Below are positions 18,164 to 50,980 of a DNA stretch of 64,000 nt, in pieces. Every line of letters begins with the position of its first letter. Position 1 is the stretch's first letter. The position numbers and the translations under genes are program-made. The stretch is from an uncultured Actinomycetes bacterium (lineage in GTDB: Bacteria; Actinomycetota; Geothermincolia; Fen-727; JACVIW01), in NCBI GenBank assembly GCA_937127245.1, contig CAKZLU010000050.1, positions 1 through 64,000 on the forward strand, read 5' to 3'. A model generated the notes under the pieces. The model was not told the DNA's origin, ran no database searches, and was given only the letters and a program-made list of their open reading frames with translations.

Positions 18164-21100
18164 TTAAAGCGCCCCTATCGAGTCATGCGCCGCCTGCCTG
18201 AACACTCCGTTTGCCGAGTTCCAGTAAACAGCGCGTTCGGCTATTACCGGCTCATCGGATGTGACAACGGTCGATACGCTCCACTCGTTTTCCACCGTTT
18301 CAGCAACGGACACGCTCTGCCTGGTTTCAGGACCGAGTTCAATGGTCGGACCCTCGACCCTTCCGCCCGGGGTCAGGTAGGTTATCTGAACTTTCGCTTT
18401 CTTCTTTCCAGGGTTCTGCACGAGAACCCATGTCTCGAATGAACCGTCATCGCCCACACCCGTTGAGCCTTCGGCAAGATACCAGGTCTTGGCTGGCTGT
18501 GTAACCCCTATCGAGTCATGCGCCGCCTGCCTGAACACTCCGTTTGCCGAGTTCCAGTAAACAGCGCGTTCGGCTATTACCGGCTCATCGGATGTGACAA
18601 CGGTCGATACGCTCCACTCGTTTTCCACCGTTTCAGCAACGGACACGCTCTGCCTGGTTTCAGGACCGAGTTCAATGGTCGGACCCTCGACCCTTCCGCC
18701 CGGGGTCAGGTAGGTTATCTGAACTTTCGCTTTCTTCTTTCCAGGGTTCTGCACGAGAACCCATGTCTCGAATGAACCGTCATCGCCCACACCCGTTGAG
18801 CCTTCGGCAAGATACCAGGTCTTGGCTGGCTCAGGTTCAGGCTCTGGCCTCGCTCCAGGTTTGTACAGAATGGAATCACTTACTATCTCAGATTCGATAT
18901 CCGCTCCGTCTTTGAACATCGCATAAACATGGGCGACACCCTCATCATCAGGAGAGATCTTCCAGGAGCGCTCCTCCTTGAACTCTTCCCAATCGCCGTC
19001 AGCGAGGTCGGTAAGATTGCCGATCTTCATGAACTTGACCCCGGCGGCGTCGCTTGCTTCGATGTTCAATTTAACGATTCTTTTATCTACCGTCTTCGCT
19101 CCGCCATTTATGGTGATCATGCCTCTGGGGGGTCCGTCCACATCGTAGGCGATCGAAGCCTCGACGACATCGGAAACGTTTGAAGGCATCGCGGCGTCCT
19201 TCACCTGCAAATACACTTTCTTTCTCCCGTAGGAGTTATCCTCTCCAGAGAGCCTCCATTGAAGGGTCGTTGATCCCTCATAGAACATCCATTCCGCATC
19301 CGCAAGCGCGTCTTTATCATTTGCGATTCTGTATGCGATAACTCCTGCGCCTCCCAAGTCGTGAGCCTCGAAATCAAGAACAACATCAAGGCTATCAGTC
19401 GTTTCAGCTCCATTGTTTATGAGGAGTTTGTCAATGAGGGGCTTGGCGTTGTCGGTGCCGCCCACTCTTACCCTAACCGGAACAATCCATGAACCTGAAG
19501 AATCAGGAACGTCGGTCTCGACGGTAAGCATTCGCTCGTGGGTGTCGGTGTCATACTGCTCAACAATCCTCCCGTTTTCGACAATGTAGTAAGCTTTATT
19601 ACCCTTAAGCCTCATGGGGACCTCCAGCCTGCAGCCCGCAAGATGCAGTTCAGCGCCAGTTGAACCGTCAATCGTGTTTTTAATCTTGCAGGTCACCTCC
19701 TCAAATGGTCCCTTCTCGTTTAAGGGAAGCGGTACCTGTCCAGGCAGGTCAGGGGTGGAGAATGTCCCAATTCCATCAACTATTGGAGGCCTAAGCGGTG
19801 ATGAGTCCTGCTCCATCCACTGTATGGATGGTCTTGAGGTCTGATACATCTGCCATGTGTTGGGGTAGGGATTTTCGGGGGTGGCGGTACCAATGCCGAG
19901 GCCCTCCCAACCGGGAATAGACCACTTCATCGTTGGGTCGTTGTCAGCACCAGGGAAACCCCACTCAATCAGCTGTCCGTCTCTTATTTTTATAATCCTG
20001 TATCCATTGAAATCCGCCTGCGCTGCGGGTAGGAGAAACTCGGGACCAACTCCCGGTTCCACTGCCGTGGAGTTGATAGAGACGACCTGTCCGGTACCAT
20101 CATACCAAGGTACACCATCTATCCTGTCGTGGTGTTCATGCCCTGTTGCCACGAAATCCACATTATATGTCTTCATAAGATGCACAAGCGACTGTGAGCC
20201 CTCACCCTCTCCTGCGGGAAGATAAAGGAAATGCCTTTCGGTCATCCCTGGATGCGCCCACATTTCCGGGTCCGAACCGCTCGGCTGTATCGGGTCATGA
20301 TGCATGAAAACACCTTTTAGCGTCTTATCAGGATTTGCTTGAAGAACTCTTCTTATCCAGCCCAGCTGCCCGGTATACTGATCAGGGTCTTTGGGGTCCC
20401 ATCTCAATCCAGAACCTGGCGGTGGATCTCCTGTCTTCCATTTATCCCCGTTTCCTCTCAACTGCCCGTGCCACTTGTGGGGATTGGTCACGTAGGCAAG
20501 AATGTTCTCGCCGTTTCTGTCTCTGGGTTCCCGCACCGGCGCGGGATCAAGTTTGGGCCAGTCCATCGTGTTCAGCGAGAAGAAAAGGGAATTTCCGTAT
20601 TCCCAAGCGTAATATACAGGTCCGAAAAGGTCCTGCCAGATCTCCAGACCGTCATCGTGCTCGACGCCGCCTTCATCGACATGACCATCCCAGCAGTACC
20701 CGTCGTGATTCCCGGTGGAAAGATAAACTGGAACGTTGAGCGCGAGCAACTCATCATAGAACCAGGTGAACTCAAATCTGTATTCTGTGCCCATATCACC
20801 GGGAGTCCCGATCCAGGGCCATGCGTCCCTCGGATAGGTGTTCCAATTTTTCTGACCGTAAACCGAATCGCCTGTGAAGACCACGAAATCAGGATTTATG
20901 AGGTTTATAGCCTGAATTACTTCCTGGAAATACATCGCGCCCTCATTTGGTATTCCATCGCCGTCAGTATCGAGGGGAAAATCTTGATATCCGGGCAGAA
21001 GAGCGCGGTGAATCTCGTTAAGCATTCTATCGGGAGTACCCGGTCTGGGCTCTCGCAAAACAAAAGACAGGTAATTTAAACCGAAAGCGTTCTGTATTTC

Positions 21101-21838
21101 TTGACCGTAGACGTGAACATCGGATATCTGTAGAACTTTTATCTCATTCTTAAACTCCTTTATAACCTGCACAGCGTGTGGTTGACAGTCTTCCCGTATC
21201 GTCTCACGCCTCTCCACTGGCACGAGTTCCAGATAACCGCTCGGGATCTCGCCTTTAAATCTGACATGCAGGTCATAAAGGTCGAGTGGTACGCTCCTCG
21301 GGATTTCCACGTCAATCCTGTCAACCACAAACCGCTCCTGACCGAAGACTTCCGGCCAGCTGACACTCTCTTCTCTTCTAACATCTAATACCTTCAGTCT
21401 TCTTGTGTTCCGCACGGTGTGAACAGGGTTGTCATACTGACCGTAACCATAAGGGTCGGCCTCATTTTTGTACCAGTAAAAATCTTTCTCGCTACCATAT
21501 CCGTTGTAACTCTGCACGTTGGCGGCTATAGAACTAACGAGAAAAACTTCCCATTGTTCAACGTCACTTTCAGGAAGGGCGCTTAAAGGTATCGTTCCGT
21601 CGCTCAGCCTCCAGTCCCATTCAATGGTAAAAACATCACCGCGCCTGGCTATGACGGGGTTTCCCAGCGTGGGATAAATTAGTTGATTGACCTTTTTTGC
21701 GATTTCCGGAAGGGACCCCGCAGGGTAAAACTCCTGAGCGCTCGCTTTTTCGATACCGAAGCCTGCGGGAACCAAGGAGAGAGCGAGGAAAAGAAGTGCC
21801 GCAATAGAAGAGAAAATCCGAAACTTTTTAAGTAACAA
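18164..21838 (-). CDS. Secreted metallophosphoesterase with two identical C-terminal AEG-W modules
   Basis: 1224 residues. A signal peptide (1-35, cleavage near KASAQ) is followed by an N-terminal beta domain. A calcineurin-type phosphoesterase has its full metal set: QISDVH (235-242), FTGDSVYG (about 320), GNHDG (376), MHHDP (about 512) and GHEHHD (566). Then come beta-sandwich repeats (about 700-985) with Asp/Gly-rich IDKLLIN and KRIVKLNIEASD strands. A PEPEPEP linker is followed by two 109-residue modules identical at protein level, beginning KTWYLAEGSTGVGDDGSFET. No sorting signal or anchor helix is seen. The start is TTG 21838 with GGGGG eight bases upstream. The leader carries a predicted regulatory RNA. 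Substrate unknown: phosphate ester, nucleotide or phospholipid. Confidence 0.85.
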   Translation of the reverse strand: MLLKKFRIFSSIAALLFLALSLVPAGFGIEKASAQEFYPAGSLPEIAKKVNQLIYPTLGNPVIARRGDVFTIEWDWRLSDGTIPLSALPESDVEQWEVFLVSSIAANVQSYNGYGSEKDFYWYKNEADPYGYGQYDNPVHTVRNTRRLKVLDVRREESVSWPEVFGQERFVVDRIDVEIPRSVPLDLYDLHVRFKGEIPSGYLELVPVERRETIREDCQPHAVQVIKEFKNEIKVLQISDVHVYGQEIQNAFGLNYLSFVLREPRPGTPDRMLNEIHRALLPGYQDFPLDTDGDGIPNEGAMYFQEVIQAINLINPDFVVFTGDSVYGQKNWNTYPRDAWPWIGTPGDMGTEYRFEFTWFYDELLALNVPVYLSTGNHDGYCWDGHVDEGGVEHDDGLEIWQDLFGPVYYAWEYGNSLFFSLNTMDWPKLDPAPVREPRDRNGENILAYVTNPHKWHGQLRGNGDKWKTGDPPPGSGLRWDPKDPDQYTGQLGWIRRVLQANPDKTLKGVFMHHDPIQPSGSDPEMWAHPGMTERHFLYLPAGEGEGSQSLVHLMKTYNVDFVATGHEHHDRIDGVPWYDGTGQVVSINSTAVEPGVGPEFLLPAAQADFNGYRIIKIRDGQLIEWGFPGADNDPTMKWSIPGWEGLGIGTATPENPYPNTWQMYQTSRPSIQWMEQDSSPLRPPIVDGIGTFSTPDLPGQVPLPLNEKGPFEEVTCKIKNTIDGSTGAELHLAGCRLEVPMRLKGNKAYYIVENGRIVEQYDTDTHERMLTVETDVPDSSGSWIVPVRVRVGGTDNAKPLIDKLLINNGAETTDSLDVVLDFEAHDLGGAGVIAYRIANDKDALADAEWMFYEGSTTLQWRLSGEDNSYGRKKVYLQVKDAAMPSNVSDVVEASIAYDVDGPPRGMITINGGAKTVDKRIVKLNIEASDAAGVKFMKIGNLTDLADGDWEEFKEERSWKISPDDEGVAHVYAMFKDGADIESEIVSDSILYKPGARPEPEPEPAKTWYLAEGSTGVGDDGSFETWVLVQNPGKKKAKVQITYLTPGGRVEGPTIELGPETRQSVSVAETVENEWSVSTVVTSDEPVIAERAVYWNSANGVFRQAAHDSIGVTQPAKTWYLAEGSTGVGDDGSFETWVLVQNPGKKKAKVQITYLTPGGRVEGPTIELGPETRQSVSVAETVENEWSVSTVVTSDEPVIAERAVYWNSANGVFRQAAHDSIGAL
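18172..18498. repeat. 327-bp direct repeat, copy A
   Basis: Appears identical by eye to 18505-18831 and separated from it by six bases. It encodes one AEG-W module of the metallophosphoesterase. Identity in two reading frames supports near or full nucleotide identity, pointing to recent duplication or an assembly duplication. Confidence 0.9.
18505..18831. repeat. 327-bp direct repeat, copy B
   Basis: Partner of 18172-18498. The flanking bases diverge immediately on both sides (GTGTAACC against TCAGGTTC at the proximal junction), so the repeat boundary coincides with the protein module boundary. Confidence 0.9.
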
Positions 21839-21901: not shown

Positions 21902-22000
21902 AAAAAAACCGATCTCAACCGGTCGGTTTCACCACTGGCTCCTCGAAAACCCATAGGTGACCATCTTTGGGCTTCCGAATCGTCGCCCCCGGTCAAATAG
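21902..22000 (-). ncRNA. Candidate terminating riboswitch-like leader of unknown class
   Basis: On the minus strand a P1 helix pairs TTGACCGG (21989-21996) with CCGGTTGA (21915-21922), closing a domain with a GGGC/GCCC hairpin and a TCACC/GGTGA helix. The P1 3' strand lies in the loop of a terminator, AAACCGA...GATCGGTTTTTTT, ending at 21902. P1 and terminator therefore cannot coexist fully, the usual design of a transcriptional switch. The element sits 63 bases before the phosphoesterase start. I could not match it to GEMM, TPP, cobalamin, glycine, fluoride or ZTP signatures. Confidence 0.55.
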
Positions 22001-41577: not shown

Positions 41578-42906
41578 TTACCACTGAGCATAAAGGGCCG
41601 AGATCACCAAATAAGCAAAGAGCATAAGCCCTCCGTATCCGAGGCAGAGGGCAAGGAATAATTCAAAGCTTCCCTTTTTTTCCCGAGCCGCGACCGCTTC
41701 TTGGAATTCACTTCCGGCAGTTGCGAGTTTACCGTTACTTGAGTCTTGTGGTGACCTATCTCGGCTACGGGACGAATCACCGCTTATAGATGATTCTTCT
41801 TCTACCGTTACATCTTCTTGCTCATCTTCGGTGAAGCCTTCCTCATCAGCTGAGCTCCCGTAAATTTCTTCCTCCTCGTCTTGAGCATTCGCTCCAGCAC
41901 TATAAGATGGAGCTGGAATATCGTTTTGATGCTCGGGTCTTACGATTGGAAACGGCCGCTTTAAGAGGGCCGGTATGACCTGAACGGTCATCCAGCATGG
42001 ATAAGAATCCAGGTTCTGGCTGTGCCTGTAATGTCCGTCCTCCTCCTGCATAGAAAGCAAGTATTCGATCGGCGTCCCCTCAGATGACCTCCATGACTCC
42101 GAGCCCGGGTCCTCCCCTGACGCCGCAAGTCCCTGTACCGCCCAGGCAGTTGAAGCAACGTTTGAGGCCTCGCCCTGCCACGAAAAGCCACCGTCTTCTG
42201 CTTGACAGAACCTTAAATACATTACCGCCCTTTTTATGACCTGATCGCTTTTCTCCATACCAGAGGCCACCAGTGCCTGGATAACAGCTCCAGTGTCATC
42301 AGGGTCACTTCCGGATTGCTCGGAGTATCCGAAACCGCCATCGATATTCTGCCTTGCAGCAAGCCATTCAACTGCGGTTTTGGGAACGGGCTCGCCAGCG
42401 GCAGCGAGGGCGATAAGCGCCCAGGTGTGGTCATTAATCATGCTTCCGATATGGCCGTCGGGATTAAGATTGGATTTTATCTTCGACACAAGGTTCACAC
42501 CGCCGAAAGATTTTGGATTTTCTCCAGCAGCGCTTACCGCGAGGCACAAAACCGAGAAATCCGTAAGCCTGGATGCGCTTTTGGCGCGTTTGGAAAGATA
42601 GTCAATCGGGGATATCTCATTGGTCAAAAAATTTTTTGGATCGAAGCCAGCAGCCGAAATGGCGCAAACCGCCCAGGCAGTGAGTTTTTCAGAGGATTGA
42701 GAGCCAGGTTCTGCAAACCCACCATCGTCCTGCTGCCTTGTCTTTAAATACATTAACGCTTTCGCCACAGACTGGCCTATTGCGTTTTGCGCACAAGCGC
42801 GATTAAACCTAGAGATAACTGAGAGAAAAACGAGGACCGGGATTATCATTGAAACCGCCGCTCGAACCAAAACAAGTGCTGTCCGGCTACTCGACCATCT
42901 CATCAT
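41578..42906 (-). CDS. Membrane-anchored alpha/alpha-barrel (prenyltransferase/transcobalamin-like) repeat protein
   Basis: 442 residues. An N-terminal signal or anchor segment precedes five or six helical repeats, each with a turn such as DGGFAEPG, DGHIGSM, DGGFGYSEQSG, DGGFSWQGE and DGHYRHSQ (residues 45-310). A long acidic Ser/Glu linker (about 325-410) and a C-terminal helix (ELFLALCLGYGGLMLFAYLV) follow. The repeats are those of squalene cyclases and of the transcobalamin/intrinsic-factor alpha domain. Secretion plus cobalamin control favour the latter. It is the last gene of the operon; its start overlaps the S-component stop by four bases (ATGA). It is proposed to present corrinoid at the cell surface. 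Confidence 0.78.
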   Translation of the reverse strand: MMRWSSSRTALVLVRAAVSMIIPVLVFLSVISRFNRACAQNAIGQSVAKALMYLKTRQQDDGGFAEPGSQSSEKLTAWAVCAISAAGFDPKNFLTNEISPIDYLSKRAKSASRLTDFSVLCLAVSAAGENPKSFGGVNLVSKIKSNLNPDGHIGSMINDHTWALIALAAAGEPVPKTAVEWLAARQNIDGGFGYSEQSGSDPDDTGAVIQALVASGMEKSDQVIKRAVMYLRFCQAEDGGFSWQGEASNVASTAWAVQGLAASGEDPGSESWRSSEGTPIEYLLSMQEEDGHYRHSQNLDSYPCWMTVQVIPALLKRPFPIVRPEHQNDIPAPSYSAGANAQDEEEEIYGSSADEEGFTEDEQEDVTVEEESSISGDSSRSRDRSPQDSSNGKLATAGSEFQEAVAAREKKGSFELFLALCLGYGGLMLFAYLVISALYAQW

Positions 42907-43658
42907 CTTACCAGGGCATCTCCTTTGCTCATTCCAGACACATTTCGCAACAAATCCCCGCCCTGAGTTTCCGTTTCAAAAAACAACCTCGACTTGTATT
43001 TACGAAGCATTTCCATGAAAGCAAGCCCAAAACCATAAGCGAATACGAAATTGCCGAGAGCGTGAAGCGCGTCAAACCCCACCGAGGAAGAATAAGCGAG
43101 GAAAAATGACTTAAAGGTAAGAGGCTTTATAAAACCCAGCACAAAATAAAGATTCATTATCCAACCGAATAGGAAACCCCAAATCGCGCAATAGATGGCA
43201 AAAACGAATCGATTCTTCATAAGACGACCCCTGCCCAGTAACCCTGAAACCAGCCCGCACAACCCCCAAGCGAGCATCTGCCATATAGTCCAAGGTCCCT
43301 GTCCGAGGAAAATATTTGAGACCACCGCCGTGGTCGAACCCACCATAAAGCCGGGCAGCGGACCGAACACGACACCGCTCACCGCTATCACGAAAGTCGC
43401 GGGTTGAACGTTCGGTATGACCGCGAAAAGAACGCGACCGCCCGTGGCTATCGCGGACAGACTCGCTATCATGGCTATTAGCTTTACGTCGTGTTTCTTA
43501 TCTTCATAATAAGCGTAAAAGAAAAAAACCGTAAGCGCCACGAACGTGACGCTGATTACGGCGGGATCCTTGAATATATCCACGTCAAGGAAGGCACCCG
43601 CTAAAAAGAGAGCCAGTGTGCCTGTAAAAATCATTATTGCCGCCAACGCTTTTCTCAA
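42903..43658 (-). CDS. ECF transporter S component, CbrT-like (cobalamin)
   Basis: About 251 residues with several membrane helices. The segment GGRVLFAVIPNVQPATFVIA followed by SGVVFGPLPGFMVGSTTAVV resembles CbrT-type substrate-binding subunits. The neighbouring EcfA and EcfT genes supply the energising module. An upstream frame exists, but AGGAG five bases before TTG 43658, which overlaps the EcfA stop (TTGA), marks the start. The cobalamin riboswitch at the operon head supports a corrinoid substrate. Whether it is CbrT in the strict sense is not certain from sequence alone. Confidence 0.78.
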   Translation of the reverse strand: MRKALAAIMIFTGTLALFLAGAFLDVDIFKDPAVISVTFVALTVFFFYAYYEDKKHDVKLIAMIASLSAIATGGRVLFAVIPNVQPATFVIAVSGVVFGPLPGFMVGSTTAVVSNIFLGQGPWTIWQMLAWGLCGLVSGLLGRGRLMKNRFVFAIYCAIWGFLFGWIMNLYFVLGFIKPLTFKSFFLAYSSSVGFDALHALGNFVFAYGFGLAFMEMLRKYKSRLFFETETQGGDLLRNVSGMSKGDALVR

Positions 43659-45376
43659 GCGAACTCCTTTAGAACTTTCAAAGCGTCTGCTTTTGTGACG
43701 ACGCCGCTCGCAAAACCCCTGAAACACCTGTTGTACTGCGTGGTGTAGAAAAGCGAATCGGAAAGCACCTCTCTCATTTCCCCTTGGGCGATTATGCGTC
43801 CTTCGGCAAGCATGATCACTCTGTCGGAAAACTCGGCAACAAACTCGAGGTCATGAGTGACAACGATTGTGGTCTTCCCTTGAGATTTGCGTCTTGCAAG
43901 CAGGGAAGCGATTCTCTCTTTAACAGAAGAGTCAAGCCCCCTGGTCGGCTCGTCCAAGATTAATAGATCAGGATCGCGAACAACCACGGATCCAATCGCA
44001 ACCAGTTCCCTCTGCCCGCATGAAATTTCCTCAACGGGGGTTGAACGGAGAGATTCGATGTCGAGCGTGCTTAGAGTTTTGGATACCCTTTCCTCCGTTT
44101 CTTTTTCGCTGAAACCTGCGGATTTACAAGTCAGCCTCAGCTCCTCCTCTGGCGTCTTCGAGATAAGGTGTGATTCCGGGTTCTGCATCACCATGCCGCA
44201 AAGAGCCGCAATCTCGCGGCGATTCATTTCAGCAATATCTCTCCCGTAAAGAATCACTCTTCCCTTTGATGGTTTGAGAATTCCAGTGATATTTTTGACA
44301 AGTGTCGTCTTCCCGGACCCGTTCTCACCTACAATTGCCACAACCTCGCCGAAACCGAAATCCGCGTCCACGCCTTTGAGGGAAGGGTTTCCATCGCCGT
44401 ATGAATGCCACAGATTCTCAACCTTCACGGCAGCATCCCTTTCGGTTATCTTCTCCGCGAAAGCTTTACTTGAATTTTTCTCTTGCTTTCCAATCATCCC
44501 GGTGTGACTATAGTCAGGCCGTTCGAGCTTGTGACGATTAGGGATGCCGTCGATACCGGAGAGAATCATTCTGCCCTCTTTTACGTTAAGCGGGATTTCC
44601 GTATACCCCGCCTCAAGAAAAAGTCTTGAGATCGGCGGCAGTAGTCTCATGCCAACTGCATGGTCGGTTTTAGCGATATCTTCAGCTGTGCCTGAAAAAA
44701 CAACCCTTCCTCCGTGCAAAACGACAATTTTGTCAGCAAGATGGAAACAGCGCTCCAACCTGTGTTCTGCAAGGATAACGGATATGCCGAGCTCACTGTT
44801 TAGAGATTTCAACGTGACCAGAAAATCCTCAGCGCTGACCGGATCCAGCTGGCTCGTTGGCTCATCCAAAACTATGACCTCAGGCTGCATAACAAGCACT
44901 GATGCCAGAGCGATCTTTTGTTTCTCTCCGCCGGATAAATCCGTGACGCGCCTGTCACGAAGAGAGGCAAGCCTCAAACAGGAGAAAACCTCCTCGATAC
45001 GTTTGATCCCGCGTATCGGCTCAATCGCGAGATTTTCAAGCCCGAAGGCAATCTCGCGCTCCGGGTCCTCGAAAACGAGTTGCGCCTCGGGGTCCTGAAA
45101 GACGAGTCCCACGTACCTTGCAAGCTCCCCAACGCTCGCCTCAAGAGTGGATATGCCCTTAACCCGCACGTTGCCTGATATCTTCCCGCCGTAAAAATGC
45201 GGAACGAGACCATTTACGGCCCTGCATAAGGTGGATTTGCCTGAGCCGGTCAAACCAGCAATCAGCATAAATTCACCGGGCAGAACCTTAAGGCATATAT
45301 CCCTCAAGGCAGGCTCTCCGCAACCCGGGTACGTATAATTTAAATCTTCAATTTCAACTAACGGGAATTTTTCCAT
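43655..45376 (-). CDS. Double-ATPase energising subunit of ECF transporter (EcfA-EcfA)
   Basis: 573 residues from ATG 45376. NBD1 has Walker A GLTGSGKST, signature LSGGEKQKIALASVL and Walker B VIVLDEPTSQLD. NBD2 (about 325-560) has GENGSGKTT, a degenerate signature ISCGQRELVAIGSVV and LLILDEPTRGLD. Most ECF systems use two separate ATPases; here both are in one chain, like the CbiO duplicates in some actinobacteria. An upstream ATG would overlap the EcfT gene further, so MEKFPLVEIED is taken as the start, overlapping EcfT by 19 bases. Confidence 0.88.
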   Translation of the reverse strand: MEKFPLVEIEDLNYTYPGCGEPALRDICLKVLPGEFMLIAGLTGSGKSTLCRAVNGLVPHFYGGKISGNVRVKGISTLEASVGELARYVGLVFQDPEAQLVFEDPEREIAFGLENLAIEPIRGIKRIEEVFSCLRLASLRDRRVTDLSGGEKQKIALASVLVMQPEVIVLDEPTSQLDPVSAEDFLVTLKSLNSELGISVILAEHRLERCFHLADKIVVLHGGRVVFSGTAEDIAKTDHAVGMRLLPPISRLFLEAGYTEIPLNVKEGRMILSGIDGIPNRHKLERPDYSHTGMIGKQEKNSSKAFAEKITERDAAVKVENLWHSYGDGNPSLKGVDADFGFGEVVAIVGENGSGKTTLVKNITGILKPSKGRVILYGRDIAEMNRREIAALCGMVMQNPESHLISKTPEEELRLTCKSAGFSEKETEERVSKTLSTLDIESLRSTPVEEISCGQRELVAIGSVVVRDPDLLILDEPTRGLDSSVKERIASLLARRKSQGKTTIVVTHDLEFVAEFSDRVIMLAEGRIIAQGEMREVLSDSLFYTTQYNRCFRGFASGVVTKADALKVLKEFA

Positions 45377-46260
45377 AGCGCAGAAAACACTGAGAAAACA
45401 ACAGAAACAAGGATAAAAAAAACGAAACAAGCGTAACCCTGGGCCTGGGTCGACACTCTTATACTCGGATAGAAATCAAAACTTGTTAGTTTCATGGCGG
45501 AAACGGCGATAACGAAAACCAATCCAGCGGCAAAAACAGCGATAACACCAAAATCAGCCGGTGAAAAAACGTAGCTTACAAGCCTGCTTCTCGGACCCGA
45601 CCCGTAAGCGCGTGACTCCATAGCCTCCGCGAGCGATATTCCCCGGTCGAGGAAATCTCGCGCGAGTTTCCTCAAAAGCGGAACTCGATTGTTCATCCGC
45701 TTTATGTAACCGCCGCTGTCAAGGTCGATACCCCTTGCTGCCTGCGCTTCAAGAATTTCTCTTGAATCTTTTGCCACAGCCGGAACCATTCTCATCGTCA
45801 TTGCGGTAAGGAGAGCGGATTCTGAACTTCCTGGTGAGAGCAGATTCAAAATCCTGTCAGGGTCAACCGCTACCGCCCAGAACGCGAAGACAAGAATAAT
45901 GGACGAAATCCTCAAGCCCATTGAGGCGCCGAAGAATAATCCCTCAGCTGTAACAACGATTCTCCCAAATACAGGCAATCCCGAATATTTTAAAAGAACC
46001 GTCGAGCCGTTTGATGACACGAACGCGTTTATCACCACCGACAAGACAAAGATGAAAAGACAAAATCTCCACCAGGAGATCCAGTCAGCGAAAACACCCG
46101 ATGAACCCGCAATGATTCCAACAGACAATAAAGCGCTCAAAGAAGCGAAAGGATTGGAGTTCAACAAGGGTAACACTAAGATCGCTGCACAAATAATCAT
46201 CTGAGAAACCGGATGCAGGATATGAAAAAGTGAGTCATTTTTCTTATAAGCAATCTTCAT
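45358..46260 (-). CDS. ECF transporter transmembrane subunit EcfT
   Basis: 300 residues with several membrane helices and the coupling-helix motifs EAQAARGID and AMESRAYG that dock on the ATPases. The start ATG overlaps the DUF4430 gene stop (ATGA), and the stop overlaps EcfA. It is part of the B12-riboswitch operon and forms the membrane scaffold to which the S component binds. Confidence 0.9.
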   Translation of the reverse strand: MKIAYKKNDSLFHILHPVSQMIICAAILVLPLLNSNPFASLSALLSVGIIAGSSGVFADWISWWRFCLFIFVLSVVINAFVSSNGSTVLLKYSGLPVFGRIVVTAEGLFFGASMGLRISSIILVFAFWAVAVDPDRILNLLSPGSSESALLTAMTMRMVPAVAKDSREILEAQAARGIDLDSGGYIKRMNNRVPLLRKLARDFLDRGISLAEAMESRAYGSGPRSRLVSYVFSPADFGVIAVFAAGLVFVIAVSAMKLTSFDFYPSIRVSTQAQGYACFVFFILVSVVFSVFSALWKNSR

Positions 46261-47228
46261 CGGTTTTCCCCAAAAGGCAACGCCCTTATCTCTCCCCTGC
46301 TGTCAATTACCAATCCGACTTTATGCTTTAACACTCGGGTTTCACCCGTGAGAATTTTCACAATCTGGTTTTTTGATTCGTCATTAAGAAACAACAAGAA
46401 CCAGATCGGGGACGCGTCGCCCATTCCCACGCCAGCGCAGACAACTGCGCCCGTAACCTCGACATCGACGCTCGATGGATTTGCCTCCTCATCCAAAACG
46501 ATTATTTTCTCACCCTCAACCCTTATGAAAGTTCCGCTCAAGTTCAAATGTCTCAAAATATTTTCCTTCAAACCCTTAAGATGCAACGCGGGGCTATTCA
46601 GGATAACGATAACGGGACCATTCTTTTTCGCGTCTTCAAATTTTGATAAATCTTTTGAATAGAGTACACGGGCGCCTTCGGCGCCTAAGTATTTTCCGAT
46701 GGCTCTTGCCTCATTGTGAAACTCAGAAGAGTAGACGATTGTGGTTGGGCGCTTCTTTCCGCCGTATCCAACCGTAAAAGGCTTCGGGTAAGAACCAATG
46801 ACCGTGGGGATAAACGTGTTACGCCCCCAGGCGTGATAATCCCACCATATCTCATCTTTAGCGCCCGTTTCATAAAGTGCCGCTCCTACATCTGCAAGGG
46901 TTCCGTTTACATAGTAAAACCAATCTTTTCCTTTGGCAGAAGCTATCCCGTCAATAGCCTTGACAAAACCACCTCCGTAAGCTTTTTCGACCCTGCAAAT
47001 TTTCTCAAGGGCATCCATCACCGTGCTACTTTTCCGCCACCTCACTTGAGCTTCCTTAAGAAAAACCTTTCCGAATTCTTTCGTGACGCCAATAGATATG
47101 AAATCTCTGTCGACATTCTTTCCGCTTTTCTCTTGATCAACACTTAAACGGGCGCACCCTTGAAAGAGAAGCGACAAAAATAAGCAAGCAAGGATTAAAC
47201 GAAAACATATCGAAATTCTTTTACTCAT
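46257..47228 (-). CDS. Lipoprotein with DUF4430 (transcobalamin beta-domain-like) domain
   Basis: 323 residues. The start ATG 47228 has AAGGTG eight bases upstream, overriding a long upstream frame. A signal peptide (LILACLFLSLLFQGC) with lipidated Cys leads to DUF4430 (about 40-135): TVMDALEKICRV, GKDWFYYVNGTLADVGAA and DEIWWDYHAW. This fold is that of the C-terminal domain of transcobalamin and intrinsic factor. The remaining 185 residues form a second unassigned domain (TTIVYSSEFHNEARAIGKYL, VEVTGAVVCAGVGM). It lies between the propeller protein and EcfT, so a ligand-delivery role for the ECF importer is inferred. Confidence 0.8.
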   Translation of the reverse strand: MSKRISICFRLILACLFLSLLFQGCARLSVDQEKSGKNVDRDFISIGVTKEFGKVFLKEAQVRWRKSSTVMDALEKICRVEKAYGGGFVKAIDGIASAKGKDWFYYVNGTLADVGAALYETGAKDEIWWDYHAWGRNTFIPTVIGSYPKPFTVGYGGKKRPTTIVYSSEFHNEARAIGKYLGAEGARVLYSKDLSKFEDAKKNGPVIVILNSPALHLKGLKENILRHLNLSGTFIRVEGEKIIVLDEEANPSSVDVEVTGAVVCAGVGMGDASPIWFLLFLNDESKNQIVKILTGETRVLKHKVGLVIDSRGEIRALPFGENR

Positions 47229-47249
47229 CTTCATATCACCTTGAAGGAT

Positions 47250-47280
47250 GACCGGGACCGGAAAACATCCGGCCCCGGTC
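47250..47280 (-). promoter_or_regulatory. Intercistronic hairpin
   Basis: 13-base arms (47250-47262 and 47268-47280) pair fully on the minus strand with one G-U. There is no U-tract, so it probably protects or processes the mRNA between the propeller and DUF4430 genes rather than terminating. Confidence 0.6.
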
Positions 47281-47298
47281 GCCCCGTTTACCGATAAT

Positions 47299-49920
47299 TC
47301 AAGGTACCGTTGGATAACCGAATGAGACGCCTCCACCTGTATATGCCGAATAACTGAAGTAAATCGGTCTTTCGACAATCACTGGTGCGTCGCTAACAAC
47401 AGATACCGACACGTCACATCCGGACCCAACGGACCTGTTCACAAAAACGGTTTCTCTGCTTGAAGCGGGAACCTTTATCTGTTCCTCCTTAACGTCAGTC
47501 GCACCGGATACTCTTTTAATGAAATATCTGATCTTTACACTGGCAGTCCTATTACCTGGGTTTGCGATGCATAAAAACATCTCGAATCCATCTCGCGTGG
47601 AGCCTTCCGCGAAATCCCATCTGTATGCAGCATCAACGGCTCCGGGAGAGTTGTGACCACCAGACCAGATTTGAGAGCTCCCCGCCGTAAGCGGCAAGTA
47701 CTGGAAATATACGGGTCTCTCAGCAACAACGGGTAAATCTGAAGCAACGATAAGGCCAATGTCTTTGTCAAAGCCGAGGTCCTCAAAAGCGCTTTCGGTA
47801 TGCCTCGAATAAGCGGGAATGACCCTGTTAAAGGTTTTTCTCTCCCCTGCGGATCCAACATATGTAATGGTGACATTGGCTTTTGTGGAGTTAGGATTCA
47901 TGATTGAGACCCATTCCCTGAACTGCTTTCTCGTTGTTCCCTCCGCGAACAACCATTTCTTATGAGGCTCAGGAACGCCCACGCAGTTGTGAACGCCATT
48001 GGCTGTCGAACCCAGTATCTCGAAGGGAGTGTTGAAATAAAGCACTCTCTCCGAGCAAATAGGCTTGTTTGCTGATATTGATACGCTTACGTCTTTATTG
48101 ACCCCAACAAGTGAATTGACGTCCACGGTGTCGCGGCTCTTTCCTTTGACTGACCTCAATACCTGAACGGGTGAACTTCCATTCGCGAAGAGAAAGGTAA
48201 GGATTACCTTTGCCTCGGAGGCATTCGGGTTTTGCAGCGCGAGCCACATCTGAAAACCATCCCTGGTCGTGCCCTCGGCGAAGTAAACCTTATTGAGCAA
48301 TTGTGTCGAGCCAAGTACCTGCTCTCCTCCGCTAAGACCCCAGTTCTGGAAATACATAGCCCTCTCGGCAATGAAATATCCATCGCCTGTTACCTTCGCT
48401 GAAACGTCCTTATCCGGACCAACAAAATCATTCACAAAAACCGTCGTTCTCGATTTGGGGGGAAGCGCGACTTTCTGGGTAAGGTTTGTTCCGTTGCTGA
48501 GCATATAATTGATGGTGACGTTAACTTTATCATTCTCCTGGTTTCCAAGGCAGAGCCACTCCTGAAAGCCTTTTCTCGTGCACCCCTCAGCGAAGTAAAA
48601 CTCCGCGGGAGCGCGCTTTCCGGTACCGAAACAGACAAGCTTCCCGCCACCGATGCTTAATATCCCGTATTCGCTTAAAGATACGGAGCCTCCTCCTTCG
48701 CCACTTCCCCATATCGTTTTTCCGTCAAATAAATTGAGCACGGATATGCCGTCTCCCACTATCGGCCATGCGGCCGGATCAGTACTTCCAACAACAACCT
48801 TACTTCCGGCTATCGCGGGCGAAGAATTAAAGCCTCCTATTCCCTTCCGCTCCCATGCTCTCGCGATCTTCTTACCCTTTTCCGTATCGGCCTTGAAAGC
48901 GCAAACCCAGTTAGTGCCGGGCTCAGGCCAGGGAGCCGGCTGCTGTCCAGCGGTAACTACCCATCCCTTGGTTACCGCTGGCGTACCGTCCGAGCCATAA
49001 ACCTTATCTTTCCACGCGAGTTTTCCAGTATCTTTATTAACGCAGTAAATGTGGCAGTTGTAAGACGCGGCAGGATAAAAGGAATAATCGGTGAAATATA
49101 TGTAATTTCCGTAAACGGTCACAGATCCGTTCACGTCATTCCTAACGTCCGTGACAAACGCTCCGTTGGTGCCCCAACTTGTTATAGGCTTTCCCGTTTT
49201 CCTATTTAGACACCACACCTTCCCGTTCGGCGTAACGCTCGCGCCGAATGCGGCTCCCTGCCCGACAAAGAGCTTTTCCCCGTCCACACAGGGAGTCGAG
49301 AACGCGATTGTCTGACTGTCGCATGAAAACACCCAAACAAGCGCGCCTTTTTTAGTTACGTCAAGGCAGTAGTAGCAACCGTTCGCGTAATCGCCTATAT
49401 AGAGGTGATTTCCAAAAACGGTGGGAGAGGCGTTTACGATTTGAGCATTGCTTCTAATTGTTGACAGGTCCTTTGTCCATAATATCTTACCGCTTTTGCC
49501 GTCAAGAGCCTGAACTTTAGAACCAGAACCAATATAGACCACACCATTTGAAAAAGCGGGGGATGACCAGCTGTCAAACGCTGTTACGGGCTCAATTGAA
49601 TTTTTCCAGAGTTCTTTTCCCTCAGGTAGCTTGTAGCAGTGTATCGCGCCTGAGACACCGGGTTGTCCGGCGTAAACATACACCCTGTCTCCCGCAACGA
49701 GAGGCTGACTCCCATCCTTCGCGTAGATGTTCTTGCTTCTGAAAAGAACGTTTGCGTTCTTTGGCAGACTTACGTTCGAAAACCCCGAGTTGCGCTCATC
49801 CTTTTGAAACTGGCTCCAATCGTTTAAGGCGCCTCCGAGCGCAACTCCGGGCGCCAGCGCGACGAGAAGCGCCACAAAGGTGATTATTAAAACCCGTTTT
49901 GAAATCTTGAACGCTTCCAT
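47299..49920 (-). CDS. Secreted PQQ-like beta-propeller protein with four AEG-W modules
   Basis: 873 residues. A signal peptide (1-29, ending GVALGGA) precedes an eight-bladed-type PQQ/WD-like propeller (about 35-435) with repeated KVQALDGKSGKILWTKD and VYCVNKDTGKLAWKD-like blades. Four imperfect modules follow (about 440-873), each opening with FAEG[CTS]TR..F..W and ending SERVLYF or AERPVYF. The same module is in the phosphoesterase at 18 kb. GGGAGGAGTT precedes ATG 49920. As first gene after the cobalamin riboswitch its expression is B12-controlled. It might bind corrinoid or organise the surface complex; this is inference. Confidence 0.8.
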   Translation of the reverse strand: MEAFKISKRVLIITFVALLVALAPGVALGGALNDWSQFQKDERNSGFSNVSLPKNANVLFRSKNIYAKDGSQPLVAGDRVYVYAGQPGVSGAIHCYKLPEGKELWKNSIEPVTAFDSWSSPAFSNGVVYIGSGSKVQALDGKSGKILWTKDLSTIRSNAQIVNASPTVFGNHLYIGDYANGCYYCLDVTKKGALVWVFSCDSQTIAFSTPCVDGEKLFVGQGAAFGASVTPNGKVWCLNRKTGKPITSWGTNGAFVTDVRNDVNGSVTVYGNYIYFTDYSFYPAASYNCHIYCVNKDTGKLAWKDKVYGSDGTPAVTKGWVVTAGQQPAPWPEPGTNWVCAFKADTEKGKKIARAWERKGIGGFNSSPAIAGSKVVVGSTDPAAWPIVGDGISVLNLFDGKTIWGSGEGGGSVSLSEYGILSIGGGKLVCFGTGKRAPAEFYFAEGCTRKGFQEWLCLGNQENDKVNVTINYMLSNGTNLTQKVALPPKSRTTVFVNDFVGPDKDVSAKVTGDGYFIAERAMYFQNWGLSGGEQVLGSTQLLNKVYFAEGTTRDGFQMWLALQNPNASEAKVILTFLFANGSSPVQVLRSVKGKSRDTVDVNSLVGVNKDVSVSISANKPICSERVLYFNTPFEILGSTANGVHNCVGVPEPHKKWLFAEGTTRKQFREWVSIMNPNSTKANVTITYVGSAGERKTFNRVIPAYSRHTESAFEDLGFDKDIGLIVASDLPVVAERPVYFQYLPLTAGSSQIWSGGHNSPGAVDAAYRWDFAEGSTRDGFEMFLCIANPGNRTASVKIRYFIKRVSGATDVKEEQIKVPASSRETVFVNRSVGSGCDVSVSVVSDAPVIVERPIYFSYSAYTGGGVSFGYPTVP

Positions 49921-50000
49921 AACTCCTCCCTGATAGTTCCATTCATATGCTTATCTACTAACATCCTCAGCCCTGAAAACTAACGCTCACAACCTTGCAT

Positions 50001-50041
50001 GACCCGGCAGCACCCCCTTTCCCTTCGAACAATGCCGGGTC
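50001..50041 (-). promoter_or_regulatory. Second leader stem-loop
   Basis: 9-bp arms GACCCGGCA/TGCCGGGTC (50001-50009 and 50033-50041) lie between the riboswitch terminator and the first gene. There is no U-tract, so it is an mRNA-structure element. Confidence 0.45.
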
Positions 50042-50046
50042 TAAAA

Positions 50047-50085
50047 CCAAAACAAAAACCGCCCCTCGATCTCGATGGGCGGTTT
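50047..50085 (-). terminator. Riboswitch-controlled intrinsic terminator
   Basis: A 9-bp stem GGGCGGTTT/AAACCGCCC (50077-50085 and 50056-50064) on the minus strand is followed by TTTTTGTTTTGG. It lies right after the cobalamin aptamer and is expected to form when B12 is bound. Confidence 0.85.
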
Positions 50086-50124
50086 GGTTCAGGTTGACCC
50101 GACTCTCCCATGCGCGAGGGATAT

Positions 50125-50285
50125 CAGGCGACGCACACAGGCAGGTCTCCTGGCTCGGTTCACAGCTTCCCGCCCTTCCCGGCTTTTAGCCAGTGGTTAT
50201 GCGGGTCGCTCCCCATCACAGTGGCGCGTCCGCGCCGGATTCTCACCGGCTTCCCTATTAAGGCAGATTGCCACCTGCGCGCCAT
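50125..50285 (-). ncRNA. Cobalamin riboswitch
   Basis: On the minus strand the aptamer begins GCAGGTGGCAATCTGCC, continues with a GGGAAGCCGGTGAGAATCCG block, the invariant B12 box GCCACTGTGATGGGGAGCGA (50210-50230), AAAGCCGGGAAG and ends GCCTGTGTGCGTCG. All are canonical. It binds adenosylcobalamin or relatives and turns off the operon 49920-41578 through the adjacent terminator. Confidence 0.95.
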
Positions 50286-50312
50286 GTTATTCATTTTTCA
50301 AAGTGCGCATTT

Positions 50313-50341
50313 ATTATATTTCCGCAAAACGCAAGGGTCAA
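50313..50341 (-). promoter_or_regulatory. Sigma-70-type promoter of the cobalamin operon
   Basis: Minus-strand TTGACC (50336-50341), a 17-bp spacer and TATAAT (50313-50318), close to consensus. Transcription would start about 20 bases ahead of the riboswitch. Confidence 0.88.
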
Positions 50342-50450
50342 ACCGCGTAATCGGTCTTAATTGTACAATTTGACCATTATTCTCATTTTAAGTCGATAAG
50401 CTTTTTTGAGGCGATAAGCTTTCGATCCAAAAAGCGGCAGAAATCTTTTC

Positions 50451-50980
50451 TTACAGAACGGTAAAAGCCTTTCCGGCTGATACTCCCCCGGATGTCCTCA
50501 CAGTTATGTATATTCTGCCCTTTACTCCGGTGGGAACCTTCACGGATATCTTCGTGTTCGCCCAAGAAACATAAATCGAGGCACGTTTTGAACCGAAATA
50601 CACAAATGTTGTCCCGGAGGCCCACTTTCCAAAACCGTTACCGTAGATTGCTAAGGTTGCCCCGGGCTTTGCCGATGTTTTGCTAAATGTGCTTATGTTG
50701 GGAACGATTTTAAAGCATACGCCGTTTGATGTTCCGCCCGCTGTCCCGATTTTGACCGTGACCTTACCTCCTATACCTCCCGGTACCTTTACCTTTATCG
50801 TGCTGCTACTCCATGAGATGTAATCGGTTGACGCGCATTTGACCCCCCCGAAGGAAACATATGAGTTGGCGTCCTTGTATGGAAATTGCTCCCGCTTATC
50901 GTCACCTGCTTTCCTTTAGTTCCACTCGTCGGAGTCATAAGAGAGAATAAACGCAGTGATACCTGAACTGGATGAATCGA
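50451..50980 (-). pseudogene. Remnant of a TIG/IPT-domain surface protein
   Basis: Two Ig-like TIG domains can be read: TPTSGTKGKQVTISGSNF ... VKVPGGIGGKVTVKIG and ISTFSKTSAKPGATLAIYGN ... VKVPTGVKGRIYITVR, ending TAA at 50451. A one-base deletion in a T-run near 50885 splits the first domain. There is no start codon or signal peptide upstream of 50980. It is the 3' end of a longer lost gene. It stops just before the cobalamin operon promoter. Confidence 0.7.

Follow-up and report, generated by a model that had tools for sequence, protein, structure and literature searches.

Energy-coupling factor (ECF) transporters are usually taken to need no external binding protein, unlike other ATP-binding cassette importers. 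Among the systems closest to the one reported here, bacterial transcobalamin-like domains were described as fused to alpha/alpha toroids and beta-propellers and as sharing operons with the genes for CbiO and CbiQ, and a role in vitamin B12 scavenging was proposed (Burroughs et al. 2007, PMC1796856). The ECF-CbrT complex of Lactobacillus delbrueckii (PDB entry 6FNP) transports cobalamin and cobinamide (PMC5997447). In human transcobalamin, the alpha and beta domains, when expressed separately, co-elute only with cobalamin, and crystals show cobalamin and cobinamide bound to the beta domain by itself (PMC5599065). Here we describe a six-gene operon from a 64,000-nt stretch of contig CAKZLU010000050.1 (assembly GCA_937127245.1; hereafter the window, to which all coordinates refer unless a locus is named), which belongs to an uncultured Actinomycetes bacterium of the Geothermincolia. 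The operon likely encodes an importer of corrinoids that captures its cargo with a two-part device resembling transcobalamin.

The locus was read on the minus strand from 50341 to 41578, where a promoter, a cobalamin riboswitch, a terminator and six closely packed genes follow one another in the same orientation (Table 1). Every element listed in a preliminary description of this DNA was thus recovered. The aptamer scored above the gathering threshold of the RF00174 covariance model (31.5 bits) and is accompanied by an expression platform, a terminator formed by a GC-rich hairpin and a T-run. This places it in the cobalamin riboswitch family, and repression of the operon by cobalamin is predicted. 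From gene 2 to gene 6, each reading frame overlaps the next by 4–19 bases, so these genes are likely translationally coupled. For gene 4, the ATG at 45376 was taken as the most likely start rather than the TTG at 45430, which refines the earlier annotation.

Table 1. Features of the riboswitch-controlled operon (window coordinates).
Feature	Position	Strand	Evidence and remarks
Sigma-70-type promoter-like site, TTGACC-17-TATAAT	50313..50341	-	11/12 consensus matches; placement fits riboswitch start
Cobalamin riboswitch aptamer, RF00174	50123..50293	-	107.8 bits, E 5e-26; match to full-length model
Intrinsic terminator (expression platform), AAACCGCCC...GGGGCGGTTTTT	about 50047..50086	-	-24.8 kcal/mol; z -4.6 vs shuffles
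Gene 1, exported PQQ/BamB-type beta-propeller with four AEG-W/DUF5719 repeats, 873 aa	47299..49920	-	PF13360 9e-23; PF18986 4e-16
Gene 2, DUF4430 lipoprotein, 323 aa	46257..47228	-	PF14478 9e-18; transcobalamin-like beta domain plus second alpha/beta domain
Transcobalamin-like beta-grasp (SLBB) domain, gene 2 residues 43-133	46830..47102	-	Model secondary structure
Gene 3, EcfT (CbiQ family)	45358..46260	-	PF02361 8e-18
Gene 4, EcfA-EcfA' double ATPase, one chain	43655..45376	-	TIGR04520 1e-112; TIGR04521 4e-108; two domains
Gene 5, CbrT-type S component	42903..43664	-	ORF open to 43727; best PDB match 6FNP CbrT
Gene 6, exported alpha6/alpha6 toroid	41578..42906	-	PF13243 8e-15; AlphaFold pLDDT 83.5

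Corrinoid import, as the preliminary description had proposed, was supported by the riboswitch and by the CbrT-like S component. A single-sequence query with the gene 5 product returned 6FNP as its sole significant PDB match (8e-15). A profile of the class sequences likewise gave 6FNP (1.3e-23), as did a profile of 41 sequences taken from loci of three phyla (1.3e-25), for which the runner-up had an E-value of 0.15. The riboflavin-like label that Pfam attaches to this protein was considered misleading because CbrT is the only significant PDB match. The N-terminal extension of gene 5 contains additional hydrophobic segments, according to hydropathy. Together with EcfT (PF02361) and the two ATPase units of gene 4 (TIGR04520 and TIGR04521), the CbrT homologue completes the composition of a CbrT-type ECF transporter, for which cobalamin/cobinamide uptake is predicted from sequence.

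The host genome, which is 94.9% complete, contains 15 B12-binding domains, among them, by their sequences, methyltransferase-type corrinoid proteins and a methylmalonyl-CoA mutase-type subunit. Its sole TP_methylase match resembles the rRNA methyltransferase RsmI, so the host lacks corrin-ring methyltransferases and is a putative corrinoid-auxotrophic, deep-branching actinobacterium. One CbrT and one DUF4430 protein are encoded; a FecCD permease found elsewhere in the genome makes a second importer possible. A second cobalamin riboswitch (82.2 bits; L125:5521-5685, corresponding to G000:C4:15520-15684) has nothing behind it but short, interrupted frames that resemble a peptide-type substrate-binding protein; the region may be an uptake operon that has decayed or was misassembled.

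The fold of the gene 2 lipoprotein was analysed with an AlphaFold model computed from 80 homologues (mean pLDDT 90.9). DUF4430 accounts only for the first half of the protein (residues 43-133), which narrows the earlier assignment, and its secondary-structure elements in the model (E43-50, E55-63, H70-75, E80-83, E88-92, E101-107 and E126-133) form a beta-grasp with a beta-hairpin insert at residues 80-92, directly after the helix. Such a hairpin is the defining feature of the transcobalamin-like clade (Burroughs et al. 2007, PMC1796856); the gene 2 model therefore has the fold of this SLBB clade, and its context agrees as well, as the protein is exported and encoded in an operon with CbiO/CbiQ homologues and an alpha/alpha toroid. 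Foldseek retrieved bovine, human and rat transcobalamin, intrinsic factor and haptocorrin with a probability of 1.00 over about 100-120 columns, and superposition on the isolated beta domain of human transcobalamin gave a TM-score of 0.66; the likeness suggested earlier was hence supported at the level of predicted fold. BcsB was also returned, in full-length matches of poor rmsd. Phmmer and profile searches gave no direct sequence link between the DUF4430 protein and transcobalamin, so that fold comparison was needed. The most conserved residues are Tyr84-Gly-Gly-Gly-Phe88 at the hairpin tip, Asp102-Trp-Phe, Asn108-Gly and Trp129-Asp-x-His132-x-Trp134, and they map to regions that contact cobalamin in transcobalamin according to Burroughs et al. 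(PMC1796856). In this reading, the gene 2 beta-grasp is the counterpart of the transcobalamin beta domain and would bind a corrinoid.

The second half of the putative device is the gene 6 product, in which the alpha/alpha-barrel anticipated by the preliminary description took the form, in the AlphaFold model, of an alpha6/alpha6 toroid with 12 helices. These are preceded by a signal peptide and followed by an acidic disordered linker (residues 327-403) and a C-terminal transmembrane (TM) anchor (residues 413-441). With the lipobox cysteine of gene 2 (Cys25, kept in 76/80 homologues), these features agree with the earlier view of both proteins as exported surface proteins. Residues W78, N158, D203 and T205 are invariant in 37/37 toroids encoded in such operons, and D116 is nearly so; judged from the pattern of helices in the secondary structure, these five residues fall where inner helices begin, which would correspond to the barrel mouth.

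The arrangement was then followed across relatives. Twenty-two relatives from the same class share the order riboswitch, propeller/AEG protein, DUF4430 protein, T, A, S and toroid; all six genes are present in 18 of them, the remaining four being cut by contig ends, and the riboswitch lies upstream in 16 of the 17 whose contigs extend that far. A search of named organisms yielded 80 loci in Actinomycetota, Bacillota and Chloroflexota, the closest named relative being Ca. Geohydrothermomicrobium daggyaiense, with 57% identity. The loci were selected through the DUF4430 protein itself, so all counts describe its orthologues and not DUF4430 proteins at large. Among the 60 named loci with at least 5.2 kb of downstream sequence, T, A and S were present in 60 and the toroid in 57. 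A same-strand riboswitch was detected in 41 of the 50 loci with at least 5 kb upstream; this count is a minimum, since the profile used for the search was made from actinobacterial sequences and at least one of the listed exceptions (L140) has an aptamer that overlaps an over-extended start. With the full model, cobalamin riboswitches were found in 47 of 50 sampled genomes. As the gene order is conserved in the 22 relatives and the 80 named loci of three phyla, a chance arrangement was excluded. Homologues placed mostly beside non-corrinoid S components would, in the preliminary description, have spoken against the assignment; the S component belonged to the CbrT-type family in all 60 long loci, an outcome in favour of the assignment.

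Natural fusions, which are standard evidence for parts that work together, connect the components further. The S component and the toroid form a single chain in 10 loci, seven of them named, mostly Solirubrobacterales/Thermoleophilaceae, and three from phylum genomes (L095, L103 and L109). A hydrophobic TM segment separates the two parts in 8/8 fusions inspected, so the toroid would lie outside the cell. The toroid and a DUF4430 domain share one chain in six loci, mainly of Bacillota, within the same operon as a separate DUF4430 lipoprotein; in one of these (L142, 522 aa), the domains follow the order found in transcobalamin.

On this basis, the lipid-anchored DUF4430 lipoprotein and the membrane-tethered toroid would represent the beta and alpha domains of transcobalamin as separate proteins. 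By analogy with transcobalamin, one half would bind the corrinoid first and the other would close over it; the separately expressed human domains offer a direct precedent for a two-protein form. The toroid, on its flexible tether, would bring the cargo to the S component, as it is tethered beside this subunit and covalently joined to it in relatives; the S component would subsequently topple and, with ATP, release the corrinoid inside. While the gene content, the regulation, the conservation of the operon, the predicted folds and the fusions were established, we infer corrinoid binding by both surface proteins, ligand-dependent closing and hand-off, as well as any role of the propeller. Taken as a whole, namely a riboswitch-repressed corrinoid ECF importer with two-protein transcobalamin-like capture and hand-off to the S component, this explanation is considered fairly probable. 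For the more specific proposal of a naturally split transcobalamin, whose two membrane-attached halves close on the corrinoid and pass it to an S component that carries the alpha half or is tethered to it, the balance is even.

Several observations weigh against this explanation. CbrT of L. delbrueckii alone binds cobalamin with nanomolar affinity and without an extracellular partner (PMC5997447), which means that an importer of this type can in principle work without capture proteins. The gene 2 product carries a second alpha/beta domain (residues 150-323; 46257-46781), which is conserved over three phyla and has no match among Pfam families. The toroid model found its best Foldseek matches in squalene-hopene and related cyclases (7e-8), ahead of transcobalamin (6e-5), and profile searches likewise placed its sequence nearer to squalene-hopene cyclases; against the PDB, they gave no sequence match between the toroid and transcobalamin, whose resemblance is one of predicted fold. 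One class locus with upstream sequence (L040, or L182) has no detectable cobalamin riboswitch. Finally, the host genome encodes a second exported, TM-anchored toroid away from ECF genes (L121:8949-10181, minus strand; G000:C2), which adjoins a gene resembling a glycyl radical enzyme. Neither N158 nor D203 is kept in this toroid or in its counterpart (L122) from a genome that does not have the operon, and both toroids were left out of the system on account of these two lost mouth residues and the absence of ECF homologues around them.

A corrinoid importer without a clamp is the first alternative, in which the DUF4430 lipoprotein and the toroid would act singly and share no ligand pocket, for instance with one protein binding the corrinoid and the other serving as a docking or scaffold part on the S component. 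The S-toroid fusions are also compatible with such a structural role, and some actinobacterial loci combine the toroid and the ECF genes with no detectable DUF4430. The small aromatic-rich protein that these loci encode (SCO2322 family, Streptomyces) aligned collinearly but non-significantly with DUF4430 (hhalign P 0.039), as regards its being a divergent member. The toroid-DUF4430 single chains in the same operons, the pairing of the two domains in transcobalamin and the invariant residues of the putative barrel mouth argue against this reading, and we regard action without a clamp as unlikely, albeit a serious contender.

A second alternative assigns primary corrinoid reception to the propeller of gene 1, with the DUF4430/toroid pair merely relaying the cargo. 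Its model is BtuG of Bacteroides, a beta-propeller surface protein with sub-picomolar affinity for B12 (PMC10404256), and a chain that combines DUF4430 and a propeller occurs in a related locus (L101), another having been noted in Clostridium by Burroughs et al. 2007 (PMC1796856). The former (L101:4836-9449) is a 1537-aa actinobacterial surface protein with two DUF4430 domains and a PQQ-type propeller, in an operon of the same type. The propeller of the window, however, is of the PQQ/BamB type and has no lipobox, and a propeller in the position of gene 1 was seen only in the window's class, so this reading appears rather improbable. Gene 1, which has an N-terminal signal segment, comes first in the operon wherever the sequence of a class locus extends over this position; its propeller part is divergent among class relatives and was detected with a profile. 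Within the preferred two-protein capture reading, the protein is perhaps a surface receptor or scaffold.

That the toroid is an enzyme of the type II terpene cyclase kind, which would modify a lipid or the ligand, could be argued from its nearest sequence and fold matches and from the DPDD motif of the window copy, but DxDD is present in only 25/37 operon toroids and many class members have NPDM instead (12/21 rows of the class alignment), while D203 and T205 remain invariant; the protein is, moreover, exported and membrane-tethered within a corrinoid-regulated transporter operon. A terpene cyclase was ruled out on the lack of DxDD conservation, and an enzymatic role of this kind is very improbable overall. 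Import of cobalt or another vitamin instead of corrinoids, which the CbiQ family membership of EcfT and the Pfam label of the S component might suggest, is scarcely credible, given six genes without a CbiM-type subunit, CbrT as the only significant S-component match, and an aptamer and host B12-binding proteins that indicate corrinoids.

Elsewhere in the window, broken open reading frames resembling remnants of an IPT/TIG-repeat surface protein were found just 5' of the promoter (50430-50960, minus strand). A c-di-GMP-II riboswitch (58.1 bits; 21912-21999, minus strand) lies upstream of a gene (18164-21838) whose 1224-aa product is secreted and resembles a metallophosphoesterase with AEG-W repeats.

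The operon, found in Actinomycetota, Bacillota and Chloroflexota, pairs a CbrT-type ECF transporter with both transcobalamin-like domains, which makes a capture-and-hand-off step directly testable, as do the relatives that carry toroid and S component in one covalent chain. The proteins are small and easily expressed and so suited to testing the proposed bacterial origin of animal B12 carriers, for which they provide a concrete counterpart in bacteria. If the proposal holds, this would be, to our knowledge, the first ECF system shown to use dedicated extracytoplasmic capture proteins, and the transcobalamin domain pair would have served a bacterial membrane importer before its use in the soluble carriers of animals. 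A literature search on DUF4430 or SCO2322 in B12 transport, with most subscription journals outside its coverage, found no experimental study.

Compared with known systems, the BtuB-BtuG pair of Bacteroides resembles the proposed system in capturing B12 at the surface with a propeller protein before membrane transport (PMC10404256), but it is an outer-membrane TonB system whose propeller is a seven-bladed lipoprotein, with no homology to the window propeller shown. ECF-CbrT of L. delbrueckii has the same S family, EcfT and two ATPases, and its substrates cobalamin and cobinamide are those predicted here (PMC5997447); its ECF module is a shared one, and a capture protein has not been described for it, whereas the window encodes all subunits, along with two to three surface proteins, in one riboswitch operon. 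In Streptomyces, SCO2321 and SCO2322 (NF053823 and NF040672) are a toroid membrane protein and a small secreted protein encoded beside EcfT, EcfA and a CbrT-like S component; the window toroid scored 98.7 bits against the SCO2321 family (NF053823), under the curated cut-off of 300 bits. Animal transcobalamin, intrinsic factor and haptocorrin share the alpha6/alpha6 barrel and the beta-grasp, the beta domain matching by fold. They are, however, one soluble chain with the barrel before the beta domain, whereas the window has two genes for two membrane-attached proteins, with single chains in related operons. The SLBB proteins of Burroughs et al. 2007 (PMC1796856) resemble gene 2 in their beta-grasp clade, hairpin insert, export, CbiO/CbiQ operons and toroid or propeller partners. 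The general idea of a bacterial transcobalamin-like domain, a toroid and CbiQ/CbiO operons was accordingly known in 2007, including the proposal of B12 scavenging, and the arrangement is widespread, so the preliminary description of a distinct machine was overstated. That study emphasised single-chain fusions and did not identify the S component; in the window operon, in contrast, the alpha and beta proteins are separate. What is added here is the CbrT-type S component, the cobalamin riboswitch and its statistics, the S-toroid fusions of relatives, a signature conserved at the barrel mouth, and a two-protein form that is itself conserved and includes an extra domain.

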